64,000 nt of DNA. It comes from Kiritimatiellia bacterium. GTDB taxonomy: Bacteria > Verrucomicrobiota > Kiritimatiellia > RFP12 > UBA1067. A program made the position numbers and the translations under genes. The stretch spans positions 1 through 64,000 of the forward strand of contig JAFXTB010000003.1 in assembly GCA_017525225.1 (NCBI GenBank), read 5' to 3'. Positions 32,474 through 61,749 of this stretch are shown here, piece after piece. Each line of letters opens with the position of its first letter. The stretch's first letter is position 1. A model generated the notes under the pieces. That model did no database searches. It saw only the letters and a program-made list of their open reading frames with translations, and was not told the origin of the DNA.

Positions 32474-32783
32474 GACAAAAGAACATGAGCAACAACCGTA
32501 CCAATCCGGCCCGAAGGAATAATACCGTCAAAAAAATCCTGACAATCCTGCCATTCCGCCTTGATCTCGCACCCAACCATATTTAATGTACAACCGCCGC
32601 CCTACAACAACATATCCGATATTATAGGCTTTATACAGGAATATACACACGAGCCCTGAATCTTTATGTCATGCGCAGACATACGAGCGGAAGATTCACT
32701 GATATGGTTTTTCTATTTCAACTGATATGCCTATGGAAATCTCACTGGAAACGTCACTTGGTGGAACACAAGGCGAGGGATGG
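32474..32783. other. Intergenic stretch between the Trp-like sequence and tRNA-Asn
   Basis: About 310 nt, AT-richer than the surroundings. It contains a minus-strand TATAAT at 32621-32626 that could drive the Trp-like tRNA and the coiled-coil gene. No other feature seen. Confidence 0.4.
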
Positions 32784-32855
32784 CTCGGATGGCTGGACTC
32801 GGACCAGCAACGGCCGCATTAACGGTGCGGTGCTCTACCATTGAACTACATCCGA
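32784..32855 (-). tRNA. tRNA-Asn (anticodon GTT) with C33
   Basis: Seven perfect acceptor pairs (TCGGATG with CATCCGA), D-arm GTTC-AATGGTA-GAGC, anticodon stem CCGCA/TGCGG, T-arm GCTGG-TCCGAGT-CCAGC, discriminator G, and an encoded CCA at 32781-32783. U1-A72 and discriminator G are as in bacterial tRNA-Asn. The anticodon loop reads CCGTTAA, so position 33 is C where U is nearly universal. Confidence 0.85.
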
Positions 32856-32860
32856 ATTGG

Positions 32861-32935
32861 AGGCGGGAGTCGGATTCGAACCGACGTTCCTCAGGTTATG
32901 AACCTGCCGCTGGTACCACTCCAGTCAATCCCGCT
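32861..32935 (-). tRNA. tRNA with CAT anticodon (Met, initiator Met or Ile2), mismatched 1:72
   Basis: Anticodon loop TTCATAA on a CAGG/CCTG stem, T-arm GTCGG-TTCGAAT-CCGAC, D-stem CTGG/CCAG, encoded CCA at 32858-32860. Acceptor strands are AGCGGGA and TCCCGCC, so the first pair is A1-C72, unpaired. Initiator tRNAs also lack a 1:72 pair, but the three G:C pairs typical of an initiator anticodon stem are absent. Assignment among Met, fMet and Ile2 is open. Confidence 0.8.
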
Positions 32936-33026
32936 CTTTCACATGAGACCATTGAAAAACCATGCCAGATTTTGCAACTGCCTCGCAGATCACGACATCA
33001 GCATAAACGCATCCCGCGCAAAAGCG

Positions 33027-33593
33027 TTACACCTTTTTCGCGGCTTTTCTCTCCTTGGCCAGTCCCCGATGACGGATAATCCGCACGAAGCCGGGCGAGA
33101 CGCCGAAATCCCGTGCAACTTCCGCCGCGCTGCGCCCTCCGACCGTACAGGCCTCGAAGATCGCCCGCGTGCGGTCGGAACAGCGCCAACCGGACACCGC
33201 CCGCGTCCGTGCCCTGACGCGGATCGCCGCCTCCTCGCGCGCCTCAACAATCTGCGGCACCACGGCCGGAACCGCGATCTCGATTTCGTCAATCTCAATG
33301 GTCACATCCCGACAGCGCGCCTTCGCCCGTCGATGGTAGTCAATCACCTGACGGGCAACCTGTGTCTTCAGATACGAACACGTCTCGGCCGCGCTCCGCG
33401 CCTGAAAGCGTCCGTCCCGAACCGCCGCGACGAACTTGACGAACACGTCCTGCACGGCGTCGTCCGGCTCGTCACAACCCCGCCTCACGGCGTATGCGCG
33501 CATGACGGGTGCGAAGGCGGCGTAGAACGCCGTCCATGCCTGGTCGTCATCTTGCTCAATGTCCGAGCAGATCGAATCATCTATCTTTTCCAT
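33027..33593 (-). CDS. Small ECF-like sigma factor / sigma-70-family regulator
   Basis: 188 residues. An N-terminal region-2-like segment (DDQAWTAFYAAFAPVMRAYAVRRG, DEPDDAVQDVFVKF) is followed by a C-terminal helix-turn-helix of region-4 type (GRSAAEVARDFGVSPGFVRIIRHRGLAK). Length fits an ECF sigma factor. AAGGATTTT lies just before ATG 33593. It sits between two blocks of tRNA genes on the same strand, so the tRNAs and this gene may share a transcript. No anti-sigma factor is adjacent. Confidence 0.65.
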   Translation of the reverse strand: MEKIDDSICSDIEQDDDQAWTAFYAAFAPVMRAYAVRRGCDEPDDAVQDVFVKFVAAVRDGRFQARSAAETCSYLKTQVARQVIDYHRRAKARCRDVTIEIDEIEIAVPAVVPQIVEAREEAAIRVRARTRAVSGWRCSDRTRAIFEACTVGGRSAAEVARDFGVSPGFVRIIRHRGLAKERKAAKKV

Positions 33594-33616
33594 GTCTGAA
33601 AATCCTTTTGAACTGG

Positions 33617-33692
33617 TGGGCCTGGCGGGAGTCGAACCCGCAAAGACCTGCGGTCTGAACGCAGTATGTCTGCCAAGTTGCATCACAGGCCC
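33617..33692 (-). tRNA. tRNA with leucine anticodon CAG but a short variable loop
   Basis: Acceptor GGGCCTG/CAGGCCC, three-pair D-stem ATG/CAT, anticodon stem CTGCG/CGCAG with loop TTCAGAC, T-arm GCGGG-TTCGACT-CCCGC, discriminator A and encoded CCA (33614-33616). Only ~5-6 nt separate the anticodon and T stems, whereas bacterial tRNA-Leu normally has a long variable arm. Confidence 0.82.
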
Positions 33693-33697
33693 ATTGG

Positions 33698-33771
33698 TGC
33701 TCCCGGAGGGATTCGAACCCACAAAACAGATGGTTTGGGCATCCGATGTCTGCCTGTTGCATCACGGGAGC
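33698..33771 (-). tRNA. tRNA with leucine anticodon CAA, short variable loop and C33
   Basis: Acceptor GCTCCCG/CGGGAGC, D-stem ATG/CAT, anticodon stem GGATG/CATCT with loop CCCAAAC, T-stem GTGGG/CCCTC with one mismatch, discriminator A and encoded CCA (33695-33697). Position 33 is C and the variable region is ~5 nt. Close relative of the preceding tRNA, 5 nt away. Confidence 0.78.
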
Positions 33772-33776
33772 GTTGG

Positions 33777-33851
33777 TGGAACCGGCGGGATTCGAACCCG
33801 CACTGTCTTGCACCTCAAGCAAGCGCCTCCTGCCAGTTGGGCTACGGTTCC
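33777..33851 (-). tRNA. tRNA with leucine anticodon GAG but a short variable loop
   Basis: Acceptor GGAACCG/CGGTTCC, D-stem GCC/GGC, anticodon stem CTTGC/GCAAG with loop TTGAGGT (normal U33), T-arm GCGGG-TTCGAAT-CCCGC, discriminator A and encoded CCA (33774-33776). Fully paired and class I in shape, so it looks functional despite the leucine anticodon. Confidence 0.83.
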
Positions 33852-34158: not shown

Positions 34159-35487
34159 CTACTCGATCTCATCCCGATGTAACAACCATTTCCATGCCGG
34201 AATGACCTTGACTGTTCTACCGCGTTCGGTAAGCAAGGCCTCCTCATCATGTGTGATAATCGTCAGGTTAGAGCAATCGAGCGCCTCGGAAGCGTCGAAA
34301 AGTCCGTTCAACTCGCGTTTGCGCGTCGTTCGCCCGGCTTCATCCTGACCGGACATATTCCACGTCACCTGTACAAGACGAGAGACGTTCTCACCGTCAC
34401 CGATGACAAAGTCGCATTCGCCATTGTCCTGGTAATAGGTTATGGTTTCAGTTCCTGAGAGGCGCCGACGAAGTTCCAAGAACACCGTATTTTCAAGCTG
34501 TTTGCCCTGATCGTCGGACTGCAAGGGTATGACCGCGTTACGCAGTCCGTTGTCGACGACATAGTACTTGGCCTGAGCCGTAGCCTGTTTGGCAATCGAA
34601 CGCGAATACTTCGGCACCTTCAGGAACAAATAGATGTCGCACGCATCCTCAAGCCAGCCATACAGTTCGTCCTTGGCGATCTTGAGGCCCTGCGCATGGA
34701 TGTCCCCGTAGATGGCGTTCACCGAAAGTGGATTCGAGATTCCTGCCATCGCCCGCTTCAGGAAGAAACGCAGAATCAAAGGATTCTTCACGTTGAAATG
34801 CTCAATGAAGTCCTTCAGGATCATCGTGTCGAAATATCCCTGAAGCCGCTTGTACTTGAGTGAGACGCTCTCCGTCAGCGTCACGGCCGGCATTCCTCCC
34901 AGACGGTTGAATTCGTCAAATCCGACTCGTAGTTTCGCCTGTTCGCTTTCAAGCGCACTGGATCTGTCGAACCCCTTGAAATCGCAGAATTCGCGGAATG
35001 ACAGCGGCCAGGTCTCAAACTCAAGCGGCCATCCCCTCAGTTCGCTCTTCATCTCCTTGGACAAGGTATGCGCATTTGAACCGCAAATAAAAATATGCCG
35101 ACAATAGCTCTTGTATACCCTAAGGGCGAACAGTTCCCAATCCTTAACCAAAGGCAATTCATCAAAGAACATCCAGACGTCCTTCAGCGGCGTATCGGGA
35201 TACATTTCCCGATAGGCGTCAAGAATAAGATCAAGCTCCAGGACAGTCATCGACGCGAACCGTTCGTCATCAAATCCAACCCATAGAATGTTCTCCTTGG
35301 GAACACCCCGTGCGATAAGACCATTGATTGCCAACTCCATCCGCGTCGACTTCCCGCACCGACGAACGCCAGGAATCGTGATGATGTCCCGTCCATCAAG
35401 CGGCAGACGCTCCTCACGTTCCTTAACGTCAAACGGCATTTCTTGCTGTTTCAGCAGAATACAGGCCTTTATCTCATCTTTAGTCAT
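34159..35487 (-). CDS. AAA-family ATPase with DUF4143 C-terminal domain
   Basis: 442 residues. PGVRRCGKST is the Walker A motif, VWMFFDELPLV the Walker B, and IFICGSNAH a sensor; the C-terminal part with YYVVDNGLRNAV, LENTVFLELRRR and TYYQDNGECDFVI is the DUF4143 domain, which has a PD-(D/E)xK nuclease-like core (ENxV ... ECDFV). Such proteins are common in mobile and accessory regions; role unknown. ATG 35487 follows GAGGAAATGGT and lies 54 nt after the -10 box. Confidence 0.85.
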   Translation of the reverse strand: MTKDEIKACILLKQQEMPFDVKEREERLPLDGRDIITIPGVRRCGKSTRMELAINGLIARGVPKENILWVGFDDERFASMTVLELDLILDAYREMYPDTPLKDVWMFFDELPLVKDWELFALRVYKSYCRHIFICGSNAHTLSKEMKSELRGWPLEFETWPLSFREFCDFKGFDRSSALESEQAKLRVGFDEFNRLGGMPAVTLTESVSLKYKRLQGYFDTMILKDFIEHFNVKNPLILRFFLKRAMAGISNPLSVNAIYGDIHAQGLKIAKDELYGWLEDACDIYLFLKVPKYSRSIAKQATAQAKYYVVDNGLRNAVIPLQSDDQGKQLENTVFLELRRRLSGTETITYYQDNGECDFVIGDGENVSRLVQVTWNMSGQDEAGRTTRKRELNGLFDASEALDCSNLTIITHDEEALLTERGRTVKVIPAWKWLLHRDEIE

Positions 35488-35541
35488 ACCATTTCCTCGA
35501 ATCAAGGAAAGAATTCGGAAATCTTTCCGTCGTTCGCGGAA

Positions 35542-35570
35542 ATATTATCATATTTTTTCCGTGAAGTCAA
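35542..35570 (-). promoter_or_regulatory. Promoter of the AAA/DUF4143 ATPase gene
   Basis: TTGACT (35565-35570), a 17-nt spacer and TAATAT (35542-35547) on the minus strand. Repeated GGAAA/TTTCC motifs flank the -10 and could bind a regulator. Confidence 0.6.
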
Positions 35571-37470: not shown

Positions 37471-38253
37471 TCACTCCCGTAACAATTTTTCTTTTGCTTC
37501 CCGTATCTGCTCTCCAGACACCACGAATGCGCTCCACCAGGCATCGGCGTCAGGTGACGTGAAGATAGGAATGTTCAAGTCGATGAAGAACTTCATCCGC
37601 TTCACGGGACCATCGCGGCCGCTGACTTCGACCTCGTGGCGATAGATGCATGCGCCGCGTTTCTCGACAACCTCAAGGTCATTCCAGTTCCGCCCTTTTT
37701 GCCAGCACATCTCCTGTAGCTCGGCCCATTTCTTGTTCTGAAGCTCATTGTGGCGATACAAACTCTGCGCCAGCATCGACAGGCTGTTCGTCGTGGCGTC
37801 TTCCTGCCGCCAGATGAAGTAGTTCCTCACCTCGCTCTCCGGCAACACGAATGCCCGCGCATCAAAAAACGCAGGCTCCTTCTTTTCAAACAGGTTGTTG
37901 GCGTTGAACCAATACGTCGCCAAGGACGCCGCAACCGACACGACCTTCTGGAGCCGCTTGTCGAACCAAGCATCCGTGTCAATGTTCTGGTCGTCACGGA
38001 CGAGGATCGATATTTCGTCCGACTGCGTGTACCCAAGTTCCGCGCCACCGATGTTCTCGCACAGATACTGCGTCAACGCGGCCATCATGTCCATCAGCCT
38101 GTGGTCAAACGGCCGTACGCATCCAGACTTCTTCGTCCAGGAATGGAACGCCTTGCCGTCCAGACGGATGATCATCGGCAACCGACGCGTGAGCTTCACG
38201 TCGCTCGCGCGTTCGTATTCCTTCATCCGTTCTCCGAGATTATTCTTTCTCAT
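37471..38253 (-). CDS. Thg1-like protein (tRNA 5'-end 3'-5' polymerase)
   Basis: 260 residues. MIIRLDGKAFHSWTKK near residue 30 supplies the first metal-binding Asp of the Thg1 palm domain, GYTQSDEISILV the second acidic pair, and FDARAFVLP and YFIWRQEDATTNSL the following conserved blocks. Thg1 adds G-1 to tRNA-His; bacterial Thg1-like proteins instead rebuild truncated or mismatched tRNA 5' ends in the 3'-5' direction using the 3' strand as template. ATG 38253 follows GGAGGTGTTGG and overlaps the kinase gene by 14 nt, so both are made together. Structurally odd tRNA genes lie about 4 kb downstream. Confidence 0.88.
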   Translation of the reverse strand: MRKNNLGERMKEYERASDVKLTRRLPMIIRLDGKAFHSWTKKSGCVRPFDHRLMDMMAALTQYLCENIGGAELGYTQSDEISILVRDDQNIDTDAWFDKRLQKVVSVAASLATYWFNANNLFEKKEPAFFDARAFVLPESEVRNYFIWRQEDATTNSLSMLAQSLYRHNELQNKKWAELQEMCWQKGRNWNDLEVVEKRGACIYRHEVEVSGRDGPVKRMKFFIDLNIPIFTSPDADAWWSAFVVSGEQIREAKEKLLRE

Positions 38254-38695
38254 CCAACACCTCCACATCAAATCCTTGCTCCGTAACCTTCACGCGATAG
38301 AGCGCGTCAAAGCCCTCGTCTGGGCTCGGGCGCTCAAACCGCGACAGCTTCTGCCGAATCACGTGTTCCGGAACGCGGGCCTTGCCGATGCGCTTCGCGT
38401 TCCGCGCGATACATGCCTCCAGGTCGGACTCGAAGAAGTAGCCGACCACGCGCGCACCCTCCCGCTTCGCGGCAGGGATGTAGCGCGACCGTTCAAGCGC
38501 GTTGATGTTCGTGTTGTCGATCACGCAATTCTTCCGCCGCCTCAACGCAAAGGCAAACAGCTCCGCCTCGGCGGACCGCGTCCGCAGCTGGTCCAGCGAG
38601 ATGTACAAGTGATGTGGAAACAACCGCTCGCGGCAAAACGTCGTCTTGCCGCTTCCGGGTATTCCAATCATCAACGCGACGATGAATCCGTCCAT
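38240..38695 (-). CDS. Polynucleotide-kinase-like P-loop protein
   Basis: 151 residues. GIPGSGKTTFC is the Walker A loop, YISLDQLR the acceptor-side Asp, CVIDNTN the second strand typical of T4-Pnkp-like and AAA_33 kinases, and IARNAKRIGKARVP a lid with arginines. The length fits a stand-alone 5'-OH kinase domain without a phosphatase. It overlaps the Thg1-like gene by 14 nt. A 5' kinase would supply the 5' phosphate that a Thg1-type enzyme activates. Start at ATG 38695, with AGGAG 12 nt upstream. Confidence 0.8.
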   Translation of the reverse strand: MDGFIVALMIGIPGSGKTTFCRERLFPHHLYISLDQLRTRSAEAELFAFALRRRKNCVIDNTNINALERSRYIPAAKREGARVVGYFFESDLEACIARNAKRIGKARVPEHVIRQKLSRFERPSPDEGFDALYRVKVTEQGFDVEVLDEKE

Positions 38696-40054: not shown

Positions 40055-40549
40055 TTATTCCTCGCACTGTGCCAATATCGCGTCGGCCGTGACGTCATCG
40101 ACGCCGAGCACTTGTTTTGCCGCCGTGAAATACTGCATGAAAAGCGGGTGGTCTGTCCTCAATTCATTCGCTATCAGAAACGCCGTGTATGCGTTCACGC
40201 CGTCTATCGTCTGCGATTTAAGCCATGTTTCCAGCGCATCCCATTTCCCCATCCGGGCAATCGCAGCATACAGCTTCAGCCTTGAATACCGCGTAGGCTG
40301 TATTGCTCCGTCGACGTGTCGCACCGCGTTTGTCTCGCTCCACGTTTTGCCGCCCTGCGTGAACGTGTAGACAACGTTCGTTCCCACGACCTCGCGGCTC
40401 AACAGCCTTTTCGTCCGTATGAACGATTCAAGTCTCGACACCGTAGCCGGATCGAGAGTTTTTGGCGTTGCCGCCGTCTGCGCGTGTGAAACGACCGCAA
40501 AGCACGTCAGTACGGCGGCAACGCCGAAATTCAATAGCCTATTCTTCAT
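40055..40549 (-). CDS. Exported protein at the distal end of the phage-like region
   Basis: 164 residues with a clear signal peptide (LLNFGVAAVLTCFAVVSHAQ). The mature part (ATVSRLESFIRTKRLLSREV, FLIANELRTDHPLFMQYFTAAKQVLG) is helical and unrecognised. Its start overlaps the preceding gene's end by 11 nt. Signal peptides are not expected on virion proteins, which makes this cluster unusual. Confidence 0.6.
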   Translation of the reverse strand: MKNRLLNFGVAAVLTCFAVVSHAQTAATPKTLDPATVSRLESFIRTKRLLSREVVGTNVVYTFTQGGKTWSETNAVRHVDGAIQPTRYSRLKLYAAIARMGKWDALETWLKSQTIDGVNAYTAFLIANELRTDHPLFMQYFTAAKQVLGVDDVTADAILAQCEE

Positions 40550-51979: not shown

Positions 51980-52918
51980 TTACTTCTCCTCCCAGGCGTC
52001 CACGGCCGCCGCGCCGCCCTTGTAGGCCAGGAACGGAAGCGTCATGAAGCCCTCGCCGCGCGCGTGCACGCCGTAGAGGAAGTCGTTCGTCATGAAGACG
52101 TTCGTGTCCTCGTCGCGGTCCTTGCGCGTCAGCACCGGCAGCTTGCGCTTCTGGATGCCCACGGCCTTCACGCCGTTCTTGTCGCCCAGCACGTACCACT
52201 CGTTCGCGTGGCCGCCGATGAGCGACTGGCAGACGCGCACCTTCAGCGCCTTCGCCGGCGAGACGTTCGACACCGTCGTGGTGCCGTCGCTCACCAGGTC
52301 CGCCTCGCAGATCTGCTTGGCGGTCGCCTCGAGCGACGGACCCACCAGAAGCACGTCCGGCCTCACCTCGCCCGGCTCGCCGCCGTAGAGCGTCCAGCCG
52401 CGCATCGCCGCGATCGCCGCCTCCACCGCCGCCTTCGAGAGCGCGGTCGTCACGGCGTTCGTGAAGGTGCTCTTCCCCAGCACGCGGCCCGAGCAGAAGA
52501 ACGGGTTGCCGTCCGCCCACTCATCGTTCCCGAGAAGCGCTTCGATCGCGAGCTTCTTCCACAGGTTTTCGGCGTCCGAGCCCATCATGCCGATCAGCGG
52601 CGCGTACACGCCGTACTGGTCGTCCTCGATCTCGTTGCGCGAGACCTTGATCGTGTTCTCGAAGTCGCGGTTGATCACCGTGAGCTTGCCGAGCTTCGCG
52701 CTCTCGAGCACGCGCTCGCCCACCCACTCGTGGATGCCCTTGATCTGGTTCAGCCAGCTGTGCTGCGTGGCGGAGCCGCTGCCCACGAAGGGAACCGCGA
52801 TGTCATCGGGGATGAGGTCGTTCGGAGTCACGCGTCCCTGCGCGGCCTTCTGCGCCTCGGTGAACCTCGTCTGGAACGTCTTGAAGAGCGCGTCCAGGTT
52901 CGATGCTGTGATGTTCAT
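51980..52918 (-). CDS. Major capsid protein (Mu gpT-like)
   Basis: 312 residues. NLDALFKTFQTRFTEAQKAA, IPFV-type N-arm, FENTIKVSRNEIEDDQYGVYAPLIGMMG and WYVLGDKNGVKAVGIQKRKLPVLTRKDRDEDTNVFMTNDFLYGVHARG are the usual blocks of Mu-type (gpT) major head subunits with the HK97 fold. Length matches the family. It is preceded by a copy of the 22-bp repeat carrying its ribosome site. Confidence 0.92.
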   Translation of the reverse strand: MNITASNLDALFKTFQTRFTEAQKAAQGRVTPNDLIPDDIAVPFVGSGSATQHSWLNQIKGIHEWVGERVLESAKLGKLTVINRDFENTIKVSRNEIEDDQYGVYAPLIGMMGSDAENLWKKLAIEALLGNDEWADGNPFFCSGRVLGKSTFTNAVTTALSKAAVEAAIAAMRGWTLYGGEPGEVRPDVLLVGPSLEATAKQICEADLVSDGTTTVSNVSPAKALKVRVCQSLIGGHANEWYVLGDKNGVKAVGIQKRKLPVLTRKDRDEDTNVFMTNDFLYGVHARGEGFMTLPFLAYKGGAAAVDAWEEK

Positions 52919-55429: not shown

Positions 55430-55617
55430 GGCTCCACGCCCTCCGGAATAGGCGGCATCTCCCACGGGCCGGGATCCTTGCCGTTCTCGCAATAGACGTA
55501 ATTGAAAAGGGCGTCATGGCGGTCGCGCACCGCCTCGTGCCAGGGATCGTCCGCCCGCCAGTTCTTGACGATGTCGTAATGGCTCTGGAACTCTTCAAAT
55601 GCTTCGTCCTTCGTCAT
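55426..55617 (-). CDS. Small acidic protein between gpF and gpG
   Basis: 63 residues (TKDEAFEEFQSHYDIVKNW, then MPPIPEGVEP). Overlaps both neighbours by 4 nt (ATGA junctions), which supports expression. No family recognised. Confidence 0.65.
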   Translation of the reverse strand: MTKDEAFEEFQSHYDIVKNWRADDPWHEAVRDRHDALFNYVYCENGKDPGPWEMPPIPEGVEP

Positions 55618-56804
55618 GGCAGCTCCTCCATCTTGATGTATCCGTCTGTGACAAGTCGGCGCAGAAATTCATTATAGTCATTGATGTCGATTGTTCCGGC
55701 GTTGTTGTCGGCATCGAAAGCCTGGATGCGCTTCGCGACCTCCGGAGTCGGCGTCTTGAGCCACTGCCACCGGCGCAGCTGCTTGCCGGCAGCGATGTAG
55801 TCCACCTTGCTGCCGATGTTGTGTCCGAAGAGCAGGTCCGCCGGAGAAGGGGTGTTGTCGCCCTTCGGATGCGTGTGCAGCGTGCACACGGTCGTGTCTT
55901 CCGGCACTTCGATCTTCACGCCGCGTTCGTCGCCGGTGGCCTCCGCGATTTTCTTGCCGGTTATGTAGTCCCGTACCACGGCCCGTTCCCTGCCATCGGT
56001 ATCAGTGCGGCTCCCTTCAGCCCGCGCCGTCTTCTGCATCTTCTGGTCGAGCATCAGTTCCCACATCGTCGCCGGCTTGCGCCCGGCCGCCTGCACCGTC
56101 GCCGAACGGCACATGTTGGCGAAGAGCCTCATGTCCGGCTCGTCGCGGCTCGCGTTGAGCGCGTCGATGTCGATCGAGGCGTCCGTCGGATCGAACATGA
56201 ACGTCCCGCTTCGCTGCGGCGTGGGCATTTCGGCGCGGGTCGAGATTCCGATCTCCTGCGCGTCCTCCTCGTCGAGCGCCACCACGATGCACCTGCAGCC
56301 CCAGTCCCATGGCGGATAGTGCGTATTCCACCACGGATCGTCGGCGCGAAGCACCTTGCCGTCCAGCGCGGCGTGCCCCGCGCGCACCCGGCTGTCGCCC
56401 ACAGTCTCGTACTTCCAGTAGGGGAAGTCCCGCGCAGTCTCCATCTGCTGCTGGTGCCGCGCCACCGCATACGCCTGGAAACCGTGCGTCCTCAGTAGAA
56501 ACTCCGCGCGCGCCCTGCTTGCTGTCGTACGCTTGCTGTCGTCGTCGCCGCCCACATACGGCGATATCTCCGAGGCGATCTCCCTCTTCGCCTCGTCCCA
56601 GCTCGCGCCCTCCGGCAGCTTCGCCACCGCGTCGCGGATGCGCCTCAAGGCGTCCATCTGCTCGATGCCCGCCACGGCGAACGCCCGCTGCTTCAGCTGC
56701 GCGGGAAGGTTGCCGAAGTTCGTCGGATCCGCGACGGCCTTGCCGCGGATGTAGTCCGCCGCCGCCTCGTTCGGAAAGGTCTCTATTGTAAGTGTCGCTG
56801 TCAT
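55614..56804 (-). CDS. Mu gpF-like minor head protein fused to a JAMM-type metalloprotease domain
   Basis: 396 residues. Residues ~100-190 with RVRAGHAALDGKVLRADDPWW and PPWDWGCRCIVVAL are the gpF/head-morphogenesis core. After ~270 comes a second domain with VCTLHTHPKGDNTPSPADLLFG, which fits the JAMM zinc motif HxHPx6SxxD; an upstream Glu is also present. Mu gpF itself lacks this. Near residue 90 the 22-bp repeat is translated as DSKRTTA. GGAGCCAAGA precedes ATG 56804. Confidence 0.82.
   Translation of the reverse strand: MTATLTIETFPNEAAADYIRGKAVADPTNFGNLPAQLKQRAFAVAGIEQMDALRRIRDAVAKLPEGASWDEAKREIASEISPYVGGDDDSKRTTASRARAEFLLRTHGFQAYAVARHQQQMETARDFPYWKYETVGDSRVRAGHAALDGKVLRADDPWWNTHYPPWDWGCRCIVVALDEEDAQEIGISTRAEMPTPQRSGTFMFDPTDASIDIDALNASRDEPDMRLFANMCRSATVQAAGRKPATMWELMLDQKMQKTARAEGSRTDTDGRERAVVRDYITGKKIAEATGDERGVKIEVPEDTTVCTLHTHPKGDNTPSPADLLFGHNIGSKVDYIAAGKQLRRWQWLKTPTPEVAKRIQAFDADNNAGTIDINDYNEFLRRLVTDGYIKMEELP
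56518..56539. repeat. 22-bp joint repeat, copy 3 (in frame inside gpF gene)
   Basis: Two ACAGCAAG octamers separated by CGTACG, translated in frame as DSKRTTA between the N-terminal helical part and the core of gpF. Confidence 0.95.
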
Positions 56805-58180: not shown

Positions 58181-58837
58181 TCAATCACCTCCTTCCCCTG
58201 TCCTGATGGCCGGGCTCTGCCCGGCCTCCTCCGGCCAGCAATCCGCGATGTCCAGCCGCACCGGGCGGAACTCCGCCTGCGTGCTCGCGCGCCGCTCGCA
58301 CACGAGATACCGCTTTCCCTTCTGCGGCTTGATCGAATCCTGGAGGATCCTCTTCGCCTCGCGCCAGTCGGCGTTGTCGATCTCCATCCGGAGCAGCGAC
58401 ATGATCTTCCCCGTCGAGAGGAAGCCCTGCGCGTTCGCCTTGAACGCCTCCGCCACGATGAGCCGCAGCGCCTGCGCGTCGTTGCCGCCCACCTTCGCCA
58501 GCACCTTCTCCACGTAGCCGAGCATGAGTTCGCGCGCCTTCACCACGCGCTCGTCGAGGAAGATGTTGTACTGCTGCCGGATGCTCACCTGGATGAGTCC
58601 GTCGAAGCTGCGCGCCGAGAAGTTTCCCTTCGCGCCAAGCTTCTCCTTCGTGTCCGCGAGCGCCTCCAGCTCGGCGATGGTCTCGGCGACCACGCCCTCC
58701 AGCAGCTCCCGCGCGCGGAGGAACCGGGCCAGCACCTTGCGCACGGCCTTGTCCTTCGCCTTGTCGTACTTGCTCACGTACTTGAGCGGGATGTCGTTCC
58801 CGTTCGAGTCGCGCATCGTCGTTATCGTCTTTGCCAT
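58181..58837 (-). CDS. DUF3164 phage protein
   Basis: 218 residues. TMRDSNGNDIPLKYVSKYDKAKDK, GLIQVSIRQQYNIFLDERV and ALRLIVAEAF...GFLSTGKIMSLLRMEI...DWREAKRIL are typical DUF3164 blocks, a Mu-like early gene of unknown function downstream of MuB. The last 17 residues (AGQSPAIRTGEGGD) come from a palindromic element that has replaced the original stop. Confidence 0.85.
   Translation of the reverse strand: MAKTITTMRDSNGNDIPLKYVSKYDKAKDKAVRKVLARFLRARELLEGVVAETIAELEALADTKEKLGAKGNFSARSFDGLIQVSIRQQYNIFLDERVVKARELMLGYVEKVLAKVGGNDAQALRLIVAEAFKANAQGFLSTGKIMSLLRMEIDNADWREAKRILQDSIKPQKGKRYLVCERRASTQAEFRPVRLDIADCWPEEAGQSPAIRTGEGGD
58208..58226. repeat. Palindromic element at the DUF3164 3' end, translated
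   Basis: GGCCGGGC and GCCCGGCC with a short loop, followed by ATCAGGACA on the coding strand. Gives the peptide SPAIRT at the C terminus. Confidence 0.85.
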
Positions 58838-58887: not shown

Positions 58888-59837
58888 TACCTTCTCCCCG
58901 TCACCGCCGTCACCGCGCGAGAGACCGCGTCGGCCTCGAGCGAGGCGAGCTCGCGCGCCACGTCGCGCACGAAGGCGTAGTTGCCCGCGAGGAGCGCGTT
59001 GGGGCGGATGATCTTCGCCGCCACCTTCAGCTCCGCCGGCTGGGCGTCCTTGAACCGCTTCGAGAGGTACGTGCGGATGTCCGCCTCGTCGAGCGTGAGC
59101 TTCACGCGCTCCGAGAGGCGGTTCGTCGCGATCTGCTTCGCCTCCTGGTAGGCGTGCGCCTGCAGTTTGTTCCACAGGGTCGGGATCGCCACCAGGATGA
59201 ACTCCCCCGGCGTCGTGTTCACCAGCGTCTTCACCGTGTTGAGGCAGTGCGGCCCGAGGTGGTGCGCCTCGTCGATCACGAGGCACCGCCGCGAGATCGC
59301 AAGCCGCGCCTGCACCTCCTCCAGCCTCTGCACCCGCCCCGCCGGCAGCTCCGTTACGCCGAGCGCCCTCAGGATCGCGCCGAGGAACGCGTTGGGCGAG
59401 TCCGCCCACACGTCGCTCGCCTCCACGTAGCTGATGCGGCCCGTGCCGTACTTCCCGCGCAGGAGGCCCACGGCGGTGGTCTTCCCCGCGCCGCTTTCGC
59501 CCTGCACGATCAGGACGCGGTTCGTGCCCGTGGCCTTCACCACGCCCAGGAACGCCCTGCGTATCTTCACCACGGTGCCGAGGTCGTCGTAGATCTGCTC
59601 CTCGCCGCCCTGGTTCGCCAGCTCCTCCATCGTGGCGTACACCGCCCGGTACTTCGTGAGCTGGTTTTCGGCGTTGTAGCCCTCGAGGTTCCCCGCCGAG
59701 ATGTCGCGGAAGCTCTTCTCGCTTCCGAGGTCGGTGAAGTTGCGCACGAGCTGCGCGCGGCTCATGCCGTGCGACTCGCCCCACGCCGCGATCTTCGCGG
59801 CGGTCTCCACCAGTTCGTTTTCCACTTGGTTTCTCAT
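58887..59837 (-). CDS. MuB-like AAA ATPase (target DNA activator)
   Basis: 316 residues. An N-terminal helix-turn-helix (SHGMSRAQLVRNFTDLGSEKSFRDIS) precedes the AAA domain: Walker A GESGAGKTT near residue 115, Walker B CLVIDEAHHLG near 190, then LVAIPTLWNKL. MuB binds target DNA and stimulates the transposase. AAGGAGCATCA precedes ATG 59837. Directly follows muA in the operon after one microprotein gene. Confidence 0.9.
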   Translation of the reverse strand: MRNQVENELVETAAKIAAWGESHGMSRAQLVRNFTDLGSEKSFRDISAGNLEGYNAENQLTKYRAVYATMEELANQGGEEQIYDDLGTVVKIRRAFLGVVKATGTNRVLIVQGESGAGKTTAVGLLRGKYGTGRISYVEASDVWADSPNAFLGAILRALGVTELPAGRVQRLEEVQARLAISRRCLVIDEAHHLGPHCLNTVKTLVNTTPGEFILVAIPTLWNKLQAHAYQEAKQIATNRLSERVKLTLDEADIRTYLSKRFKDAQPAELKVAAKIIRPNALLAGNYAFVRDVARELASLEADAVSRAVTAVTGRR

Positions 59838-60021: not shown

Positions 60022-61749
60022 TCATGCGTAGGCCAGCATCCGTTCCTCCGCCTCCAGGGCCGCAAGCCTTGCTGTCGTACGCTTGCTGTCGCATTCCTCC
60101 GCCGCTTCCGGCGCCTCCGCCGCCGCGGGCACGCCCCCGCGCAGCCCCCAGCCCGTCGCCGCGCCGTCGTCGAGCCGCGTGCGGATCGCCCCGCGCGTGT
60201 CGTAGGCCGTCACCACCGTGCGCACCGCCGCGCGGTTCGCCCGCTGCTCGTGCCGCCCCGCGCCCCGCAGGTCGAAGAGCCCCGCGTCGTTCACGAAGTC
60301 CGGAGGCGCGCTCACGCACGGCGCCGCGCCGTCGATCACCGTCCCCGCGCGGAAGTCGTGCCACGCCTGGGCAAGCTCGATCGACGCCCCCCGCGCCGCC
60401 GCCGTCACCGGGTCGAAGCGCACCACCACCGGCGCGCCGTCGTACTTCCAGCCGTCCCGCGTCGCGAAGGCGTACTCGTGCCGCAAGCCCTCCAGCTGCG
60501 TCTCCGCCGTCACGAACACCATCCCGCCGCGACGCAGCGTCCGGCGCGCCGCCACCGGCATCGCGTACCGCTCCAGACCCTCCACGAGCGGCAGACCGTT
60601 CGCCGCCGCGCCCTGGTACAGCTCCTCCGGACTCCACGTCCCGTAGATCCGGCTCTCAACCTTCTCCCACCGCAGGTACGCCACCGCCTTGTTCAAGGCC
60701 TCCAGAAACTGCTTCAGCGTGGGGAAGTACTTCCTTGGATCGGCGCTTCCGCTCAGCACCCTCATCCAGTTCAGGTTCTCCTTCCTCATCTCGCCCCGGT
60801 AGCGGCCGATCTGGCCGTAGCCGGGCAGGAAGATGGAAAGCGCCGTCCAGAGACGGTTGAAGTAGTTCTCCACCAGCTTCTGGTTCGGCCGGCCCTTGGC
60901 GTCCACCACCCCCACGCCCGCCGTGCGCAGGAAGTCCATCGTCGGCTTCGCCTGCCAGCTGCCGCCCTCCAGCACCACCTTCTTCGGCATGTACCCCTGC
61001 TGACGCCACACCTCGTGCATCACGTTCGCGACGTCGCACGCCCGGTACCCGTCGCTCGTGCGCATCACGTAGCCGAACCCGCAGAAGAAGTCCGTCGCGC
61101 AGTCGATCCCGGCGAGGAGCTGGTACCTGGCAGCGCGCCATCCCCAGCGGTCGCCCGCCCTGTCCCCGCGCCCCGCCCACGGCACCGCCACCGCCACGTT
61201 CACGCTCGCGTCGTCCCACACCTGCCGCTCGCCCGGCTTGAGAAGCCGCCCCGTCTCCTCGTCGCGCCGCAGCCACCCCGGCACGTAGATGCCGTTGTTC
61301 TGCCCCTCGCGCGGGTCGCGGTAACGCGCCACCGCCACCGGCGAGACCTCCCGCATCGCCCGGCGCACCTCCACCGGAAGGTGGTGCTTCGAGGAGCGCT
61401 CCGCGAGGATCGCCGCCCGCGTCTCGGGCCGGAGGCACGTCGCCGGGTCGTGCGCCGCGATCCGCGCCGCCATCGTCATCGAGCCGCTGCGCTCCGCCCG
61501 GTTCGACTGGAGGTAGATGCGCCGCAGGCACTTCTTCTCATCCTCGTCGAGCTTCACCACCGGCGGACGCCCGCTCTTCGGCGCGTCCGAGAGCGCCGCA
61601 ACGCCGCCCTCGTCGAACTTCGCCGCCCAGCGCCGGTAGGTGGTCTCGCTCACCCCCGCCCGCGCGAGAGCGCGATCGAGCGGCATCCCGCCCGCGACCA
61701 GGCTCCGCACCTCGCCCACCTTCGCCGATCTCTTCGCCGCCTTTTCCAT
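60022..61749 (-). CDS. MuA-like transposase
   Basis: 575 residues. An N-terminal helix-turn-helix (MPLDRALARAGVSETTYRRWAAKF) precedes the RNase-H-fold core: GERQVWDDASVNVAV with the first Asp near 180, GIDCATDFFCGFGYVM, VVLEGGSWQAKPTMDFL and NQKLVENYFNRLW with the last Glu near 294. The place of the second catalytic Asp appears to be LEGG, that is Glu-261. The C-terminal beta domain (GLPLVEGLERYAMPVAARRTL) matches the Mu transposase C-terminal part. The end contains the repeat peptide DSKRTTA. Confidence 0.9.
   Translation of the reverse strand: MEKAAKRSAKVGEVRSLVAGGMPLDRALARAGVSETTYRRWAAKFDEGGVAALSDAPKSGRPPVVKLDEDEKKCLRRIYLQSNRAERSGSMTMAARIAAHDPATCLRPETRAAILAERSSKHHLPVEVRRAMREVSPVAVARYRDPREGQNNGIYVPGWLRRDEETGRLLKPGERQVWDDASVNVAVAVPWAGRGDRAGDRWGWRAARYQLLAGIDCATDFFCGFGYVMRTSDGYRACDVANVMHEVWRQQGYMPKKVVLEGGSWQAKPTMDFLRTAGVGVVDAKGRPNQKLVENYFNRLWTALSIFLPGYGQIGRYRGEMRKENLNWMRVLSGSADPRKYFPTLKQFLEALNKAVAYLRWEKVESRIYGTWSPEELYQGAAANGLPLVEGLERYAMPVAARRTLRRGGMVFVTAETQLEGLRHEYAFATRDGWKYDGAPVVVRFDPVTAAARGASIELAQAWHDFRAGTVIDGAAPCVSAPPDFVNDAGLFDLRGAGRHEQRANRAAVRTVVTAYDTRGAIRTRLDDGAATGWGLRGGVPAAAEAPEAAEECDSKRTTARLAALEAEERMLAYA
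60068..60089. repeat. 22-bp joint repeat, copy 6 (in frame near the muA 3' end)
   Basis: Octamers separated by CGTACG, translated DSKRTTA about 20 codons before the muA stop. Confidence 0.95.

Follow-up and report, generated by a model that had tools for sequence, protein, structure and literature searches.

An overlapping polynucleotide-kinase-type and Thg1-like gene pair, probably an RNA 5'-end healing module, in a Kiritimatiellia bacterium

We analyzed a 64,000-nucleotide stretch of DNA from a Kiritimatiellia bacterium (assembly GCA_017525225.1, contig JAFXTB010000003.1, positions 1 to 64,000; hereafter the window) and identified on its (-) strand a pair of overlapping genes, the first encoding a 5'-polynucleotide-kinase-type P-loop kinase (38240-38695, 151 aa, ATG at 38695) and the second a Thg1-like protein (TLP) 3'-5' polymerase (37471-38253, 260 aa, ATG at 38253). 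The pair, carried on contig C94 of the Kiritimatiellae-type genome G000, whose nearest relatives in public data are Kiritimatiellae metagenome-assembled genomes (MAGs) from rumen and gut, probably forms a two-enzyme RNA 5'-end healing module, with tRNAs as its likeliest target. The observations behind this reading are both genes, their family membership, their intact key residues, their overlap, and their adjacency in several phyla and in both gene orders. The reading is well supported and already described, and the pairing is widespread in bacteria: polynucleotide kinase was reported in 2010 as the most persistent neighbor of bacterial Thg1, with the proposal that it supplies the 5' phosphate that Thg1 needs (Anantharaman, Iyer and Aravind 2010, Biol Direct 5:43, PMC2904730). 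A preliminary description of the window, which knew of no described operon of a kinase and a Thg1-like gene, had thus overlooked a published one with the same proposed function. What is added here is a quantified adjacency, the occurrence of both gene orders, exchange of the partner for RtcB or RlaP, evidence for a mobile unit, and a change at an activation residue.

The kinase stop and the Thg1 start overlap by 14 nt (38240-38253, (-) strand), in agreement with the preliminary description, which suggests translational coupling. The motifs quoted there were recovered in the products of the respective genes, LDGKAFHSW and QSDEISILV in the Thg1-like protein and GIPGSGKTT and DNTN in the kinase.

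The Thg1-like protein matched PF04446 with an E-value of 1.1e-30 and 106.7 bits, against a cut-off of 29.2, which places it in the family; it also matched phrog_4717 (tRNA-His guanylyltransferase; 1.3e-80) and the structure of the Bacillus thuringiensis TLP (BtTLP), 4kgk (3e-58). An alignment of 19 Thg1 proteins showed R30, D32, G33, S78, D79, and E80 to be invariant, and these residues align to R28, D30, G31, S74, D75, and E76 of BtTLP, in which the metal and activation residues have been described (PMC3701042). The features expected of a TLP, the metal-binding aspartates D32 and D79 and the activation serine S78, are therefore intact, and the loss of catalytic acids that could have undermined the assignment was not seen, D32, D79, and E80 being invariant. 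Templated 3'-5' nucleotide addition is predicted for this protein from its homologues.

The kinase matched AAA_33 (E=5.4e-19), and a profile built from 15 of its relatives matched the PNKP kinase domain (4.5e-28) and the Clostridium thermocellum Pnkp kinase (1.6e-17), with weaker matches to PSTK (1.7e-13) and T4 Pnk (5e-10). An AlphaFold model (pLDDT 86.7) had mammalian PNK, 1yj5, as its top fold in the PDB (TMq 0.82), followed by bacterial Pnkp, with T4 Pnk and PSTK ranking lower. G11, G16, K17, D35, R98, N99, and R102 were invariant across 15 sequences, and the protein carries the features of the Pnk clade, namely the P-loop G11-T18, D35, and the lid arginines R98 and R102; D35, by analogy with T4 Pnk, would be the catalytic Asp after strand 2. 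By sequence and modeled fold, the kinase thus belongs to the polynucleotide-kinase clade, which makes action on small molecules, the activity that would have spoken against a repair role, less likely. It fell below the NCBIfam equivalog cut-offs for full-length Pnkp and PNK-3'Pase (49.4 of 502.8 and 41.8 of 750 bits) because it lacks the phosphatase and ligase domains, and is therefore a free-standing relative rather than a Pnkp. Phosphorylation of the 5'-OH of RNA is predicted from membership of this family.

The adjacency of the two genes in other genomes was surveyed in several samples. Thg1 was present in 10 of 288 genomes of the same class, and the kinase directly adjoined it in all 8 genomes with an intact Thg1 and full flanks; of the remaining two, one had both genes at a contig-end locus and the tenth carried a broken Thg1. 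In the phylum sample (388 genomes), the kinase adjoined Thg1 in 10/10 Thg1-positive genomes. The two samples share 4 genomes, so that an adjacent kinase was found in 15 of 16 distinct Thg1-positive genomes, the exception being the broken Thg1. All 3 Thg1-positive genomes among 399 Bacillota also had the kinase, with the order reversed (Thg1 first), and the pair was further identified on a Deinococcus plasmid and, by BLAST coordinates, on an Embleya megaplasmid. Recurrence in other genomes, on which the preliminary description had let its proposal depend, therefore extends to at least 4 phyla (the phylum of the window, Bacillota, Deinococcota, and Actinomycetota). The spacing between the genes was -62 to +6 nt in 20 of 20 pairs measured. 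Kinase and Thg1 distances were correlated (r=0.65, 0/5000 permutations), a value confounded by shared ancestry that we do not count as proof; the Embleya kinase was aligned only in part in the spacing and distance comparison and in the kinase tree. A reverse search of 276 class genomes found this type of kinase in 15 (E<=1e-10), and chance adjacency to Thg1 is therefore negligible.

The broken Thg1 (L025 1405-2103, L009 5902-6600) covers residues ~18-102, has no kinase, and ends near an oppositely oriented tRNA-Pro gene, which suggests recombination at a tRNA gene.

The other partners of the kinase are also RNA-end enzymes. Ten strong kinase copies were recovered, 7 of them adjoining Thg1, 2 adjoining RtcB, and 1 neither. 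The RtcB-adjacent copies fall in one family; at one locus (L085, 1498-3354) RtcB was assigned by near-identical sequence, and at the other (L094, 56-3353) by PF01139 (1.9e-82), with RlaP nearby. One genome (G158) has two copies, one linked to Thg1 and the other to RtcB, a truncated kinase adjoins RlaP in L088, and a Thg1-RlaP arrangement was identified in Thiodictyon (L044). Further, an RNA ligase (PF09414, 8e-11) lies upstream of Thg1-kinase in a Bacillota operon (L078), and the Deinococcus pair has Hen1 and a nucleotidyltransferase close by. Because its partners include Thg1, RtcB, RlaP, and RNA ligase, the kinase is most likely an RNA-repair part; with 15 of 27 inner branches of the kinase tree left open, we claim no number of partner switches. 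Upstream of the pair in a 98%-identical relative (L002) are genes for a Ro60-vWA protein, an HD domain protein, and a cpYpsA SLOG protein. The first of these, TROVE-like (370-1998), lies ~3.5 kb away from the pair, itself nearly identical to that of the window, and this neighborhood is possibly a larger RNA-repair island.

Metal-independent ribonucleases leave 5'-OH ends, and in the proposed mechanism such a cut in RNA would come first. The kinase would phosphorylate the 5'-OH with a nucleoside triphosphate, D35 being the likely base, and the TLP would then activate the resulting 5' phosphate using ATP or GTP and refill the lost nucleotides by 3'-5' addition, with the opposite (3') strand as template. 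The pair moves laterally as a unit and swaps into larger RNA-repair sets with RNA ligase, RtcB, or RlaP. The genomic context points to tRNAs damaged by toxins or by host or phage nucleases as the probable substrate, and bacterial TLPs favor 5'-truncated tRNAs in vitro (PMC6471195, PMC3701042). The central idea of the preliminary description, that the kinase readies 5'-OH ends and Thg1 rebuilds them, is thus the best-supported reading, in view of the recurrent adjacency, the intact catalytic acids, and the Pnk-clade kinase.

Several observations weigh against this reading. The substrate end of RtcB is a 5'-OH, and a 5' kinase beside a ligase that uses such ends, as in the two RtcB-adjacent copies, is chemically awkward. 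In BtTLP, K43 positions the activating ATP, and the K43A substitution cuts activation by ATP and not by GTP (PMC3701042); the ATP-positioning lysine is not conserved here, its counterpart being R47 in the window Thg1 and A in several other members. Activation by ATP may accordingly be weak, and GTP may be the activator, given the behavior of K43A in BtTLP; we treat the change as variation within the TLP family and not as a defining failure. No adjacent kinase was found at any of 14 phage Thg1 loci (nine from IMG/VR and five from named phages) or beside Thg1 of a Clostridia MAG (L007), and just 2 of 10 Thg1 loci examined on plasmids or second replicons had one (eight did not), so Thg1 does not require the kinase. 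G000 yielded no tRNA-His, so that genomic encoding of G-1, considered below, is established only in three other Thg1-positive genomes. The literature searched yielded no substrate or activity for any kinase-Thg1 pair, nor a later experimental test.

Some phage records contain a weak kinase relative away from Thg1. In one viral contig (L057; G548:C1:33700-34152), a kinase relative was matched through one in-frame TAA, which may reflect stop-codon recoding or an alignment that extends beyond the end of the gene.

The pair evidently moved laterally as one two-gene unit, judging from DNA alignment: a block at 37529-38690 ((-) strand) is common with a genome of another genus (G210, the source of L002 and L080) at 95.7% identity by blastn, and this identity ends at the edges of the pair, only a short repeat matching outside it. 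Short repeats with GGAAA...TTTCC arms separate the pair from the adjoining genes in both genomes, at 35490-35563 of the window and at 6879-6981 of L002.

In the window, the pair follows Mu-like prophage genes and precedes a tRNA array. The prophage region spans ~40055-64000 on the (-) strand, with Mu-like head, transposition, and DUF3164 genes occupying ~51-62 kb, including (all (-)) the transposase (60025-61749), a MuB-like transposition ATPase (58890-59837), DUF3164 (58184-58837), Mu F (55617-56804), and gpT (51983-52918). The array (32781-33851, (-)) comprises five tRNAs: Asn, Met, and three Leu (anticodons cag, caa, and gag). These Leu tRNAs are 77-79 nt long with short variable arms, compared with 84-87 nt for the chromosomal Leu tRNAs examined in the same genome. 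Such a setting raises the possibility that the pair is cargo that a Mu-like prophage carries at its accessory end, where it would mend tRNAs cut by host defense during infection. The Mu-like genes, an open reading frame (ORF) at 40055-40549 whose homologue in G178 lies among phage late genes, the mostly GC-poor accessory region at 31.5-40 kb beside the prophage (~0.49-0.58 vs ~0.60) with its five tRNAs and three short-armed Leu, and the frequency of Thg1 genes in large phages all accord with this. However, the contig stops at 66,381, which prevents placement of the prophage ends, the nearly identical G210 pair (L002) has no recognized phage structural gene around it, and the phage Thg1 genes have no adjacent kinase; we consider cargo of this kind conceivable and doubtful. 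Unlikely in our estimate, as the most elaborate version, is a laterally mobile 5'-end repair cassette of two genes, carried at the accessory end of the prophage next to an array of divergent tRNAs (three of them Leu with truncated variable arms), that would restore or replace tRNAs destroyed by host tRNases and whose kinase would be an interchangeable RNA-repair part that pairs with RtcB and RlaP as well.

It is also conceivable that the pair modifies RNA, the kinase making a 5' phosphate and Thg1 only adenylylating or guanylylating it to supply an RNA ligase with an activated or capped end. TLPs do form 5'-adenylylated and 5'-guanylylated intermediates (PMC3701042), the Bacillota operon has an RNA ligase gene ahead of Thg1-kinase, and ligation of 5'-App ends was raised in the 2010 study (PMC2904730). 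Yet the window pair has no adjoining ligase, and with R30, D32, D79, and E80 intact polymerization should proceed, so that we regard a purely modifying role as improbable. Slightly more remote is a kinase that acts on a tRNA-linked amino acid, as PSTK does, or on a small molecule, its link to Thg1 serving expression only: PSTK is a weaker relative by profile and by fold (1.6e-6), and AAA_33 includes small-molecule kinases, whereas PNKP and C. thermocellum Pnkp rank at the top by both measures and the neighbors are RNA-end enzymes.

The tRNA-His genes of Thg1-positive G284, G496, and G333 encode G-1 and C73 (sequences read by eye), and addition of G-1 by Thg1 is therefore redundant there. In G000, no tRNA-His turned up in pattern searches or with an 81-base tRNA-His query, nor was one among 48 tRNA matches, of which those of class I length were typed and the others were too long for tRNA-His. 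RNase P products carry a 5' phosphate. That Thg1 serves as tRNA-His guanylyltransferase, adding G-1 while the kinase merely tidies the substrate, is suggested by the family name and by G-1 addition to tRNA-His by bacterial TLPs in vitro (PMC6471195) and is the least credible option, given the genome-encoded G-1 and C73, a distribution of Thg1 (10/288 and 10/388 genomes) patchier than an essential maturation step would allow, and the 5' phosphate already left by RNase P.

Among the neighboring genes, two ankyrin ORFs do follow the pair on its 3' side, the first after a 3-nt gap and the second with a 4-nt overlap, as the preliminary description had it; as partners in the system they were rejected, since ankyrins were present at no other kinase-Thg1 locus examined. 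Neither the kinase nor Thg1 matched a defense system in PADLOC. Downstream of the pair and in the same orientation, an AAA_14/DUF4143 ATPase (34159-35505, (-)) matches the PADLOC candidate PDC-S01 (3.3e-93).

Compared with known systems, the healing module follows the same logic as the 2010 Thg1/polynucleotide-kinase operon (PMC2904730), in which RNA ligase also occurs in some cases, and direct adjacency across distant lineages, by which that operon was recognized, was likewise found in the present survey. It differs in the ankyrin genes that follow locally in the window and in that no MACRO domain, encoded in a subset of those operons, was found among the part of the neighbors that was scanned. 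The bacterial Pnkp1-Rnl-Hen1 system (PMC4411300) is alike in its modular healing of ribotoxin-cut RNA, with Hen1 also occurring near the Deinococcus pair, whereas the core partner in the window is a Thg1 polymerase in place of the ligase. The kinase shares its fold, P-loop, D35, and lid arginines with the kinase domains of mammalian PNKP, C. thermocellum Pnkp, and T4 Pnk, in contrast to which it is a 151-aa protein standing alone. BtTLP (4kgk/4kgm, PMC3701042) is the nearest solved polymerase and has the metal acids and activation serine in common with the window Thg1, which differs by R47 in place of K43 and by coupling of its gene to a kinase. For the natural role of bacterial TLPs, repair of 5'-truncated tRNAs is known in vitro, and the coupled kinase points to 5'-OH ends; the window offers a compact, well-conserved, and probably co-translated pair that makes this question directly testable.
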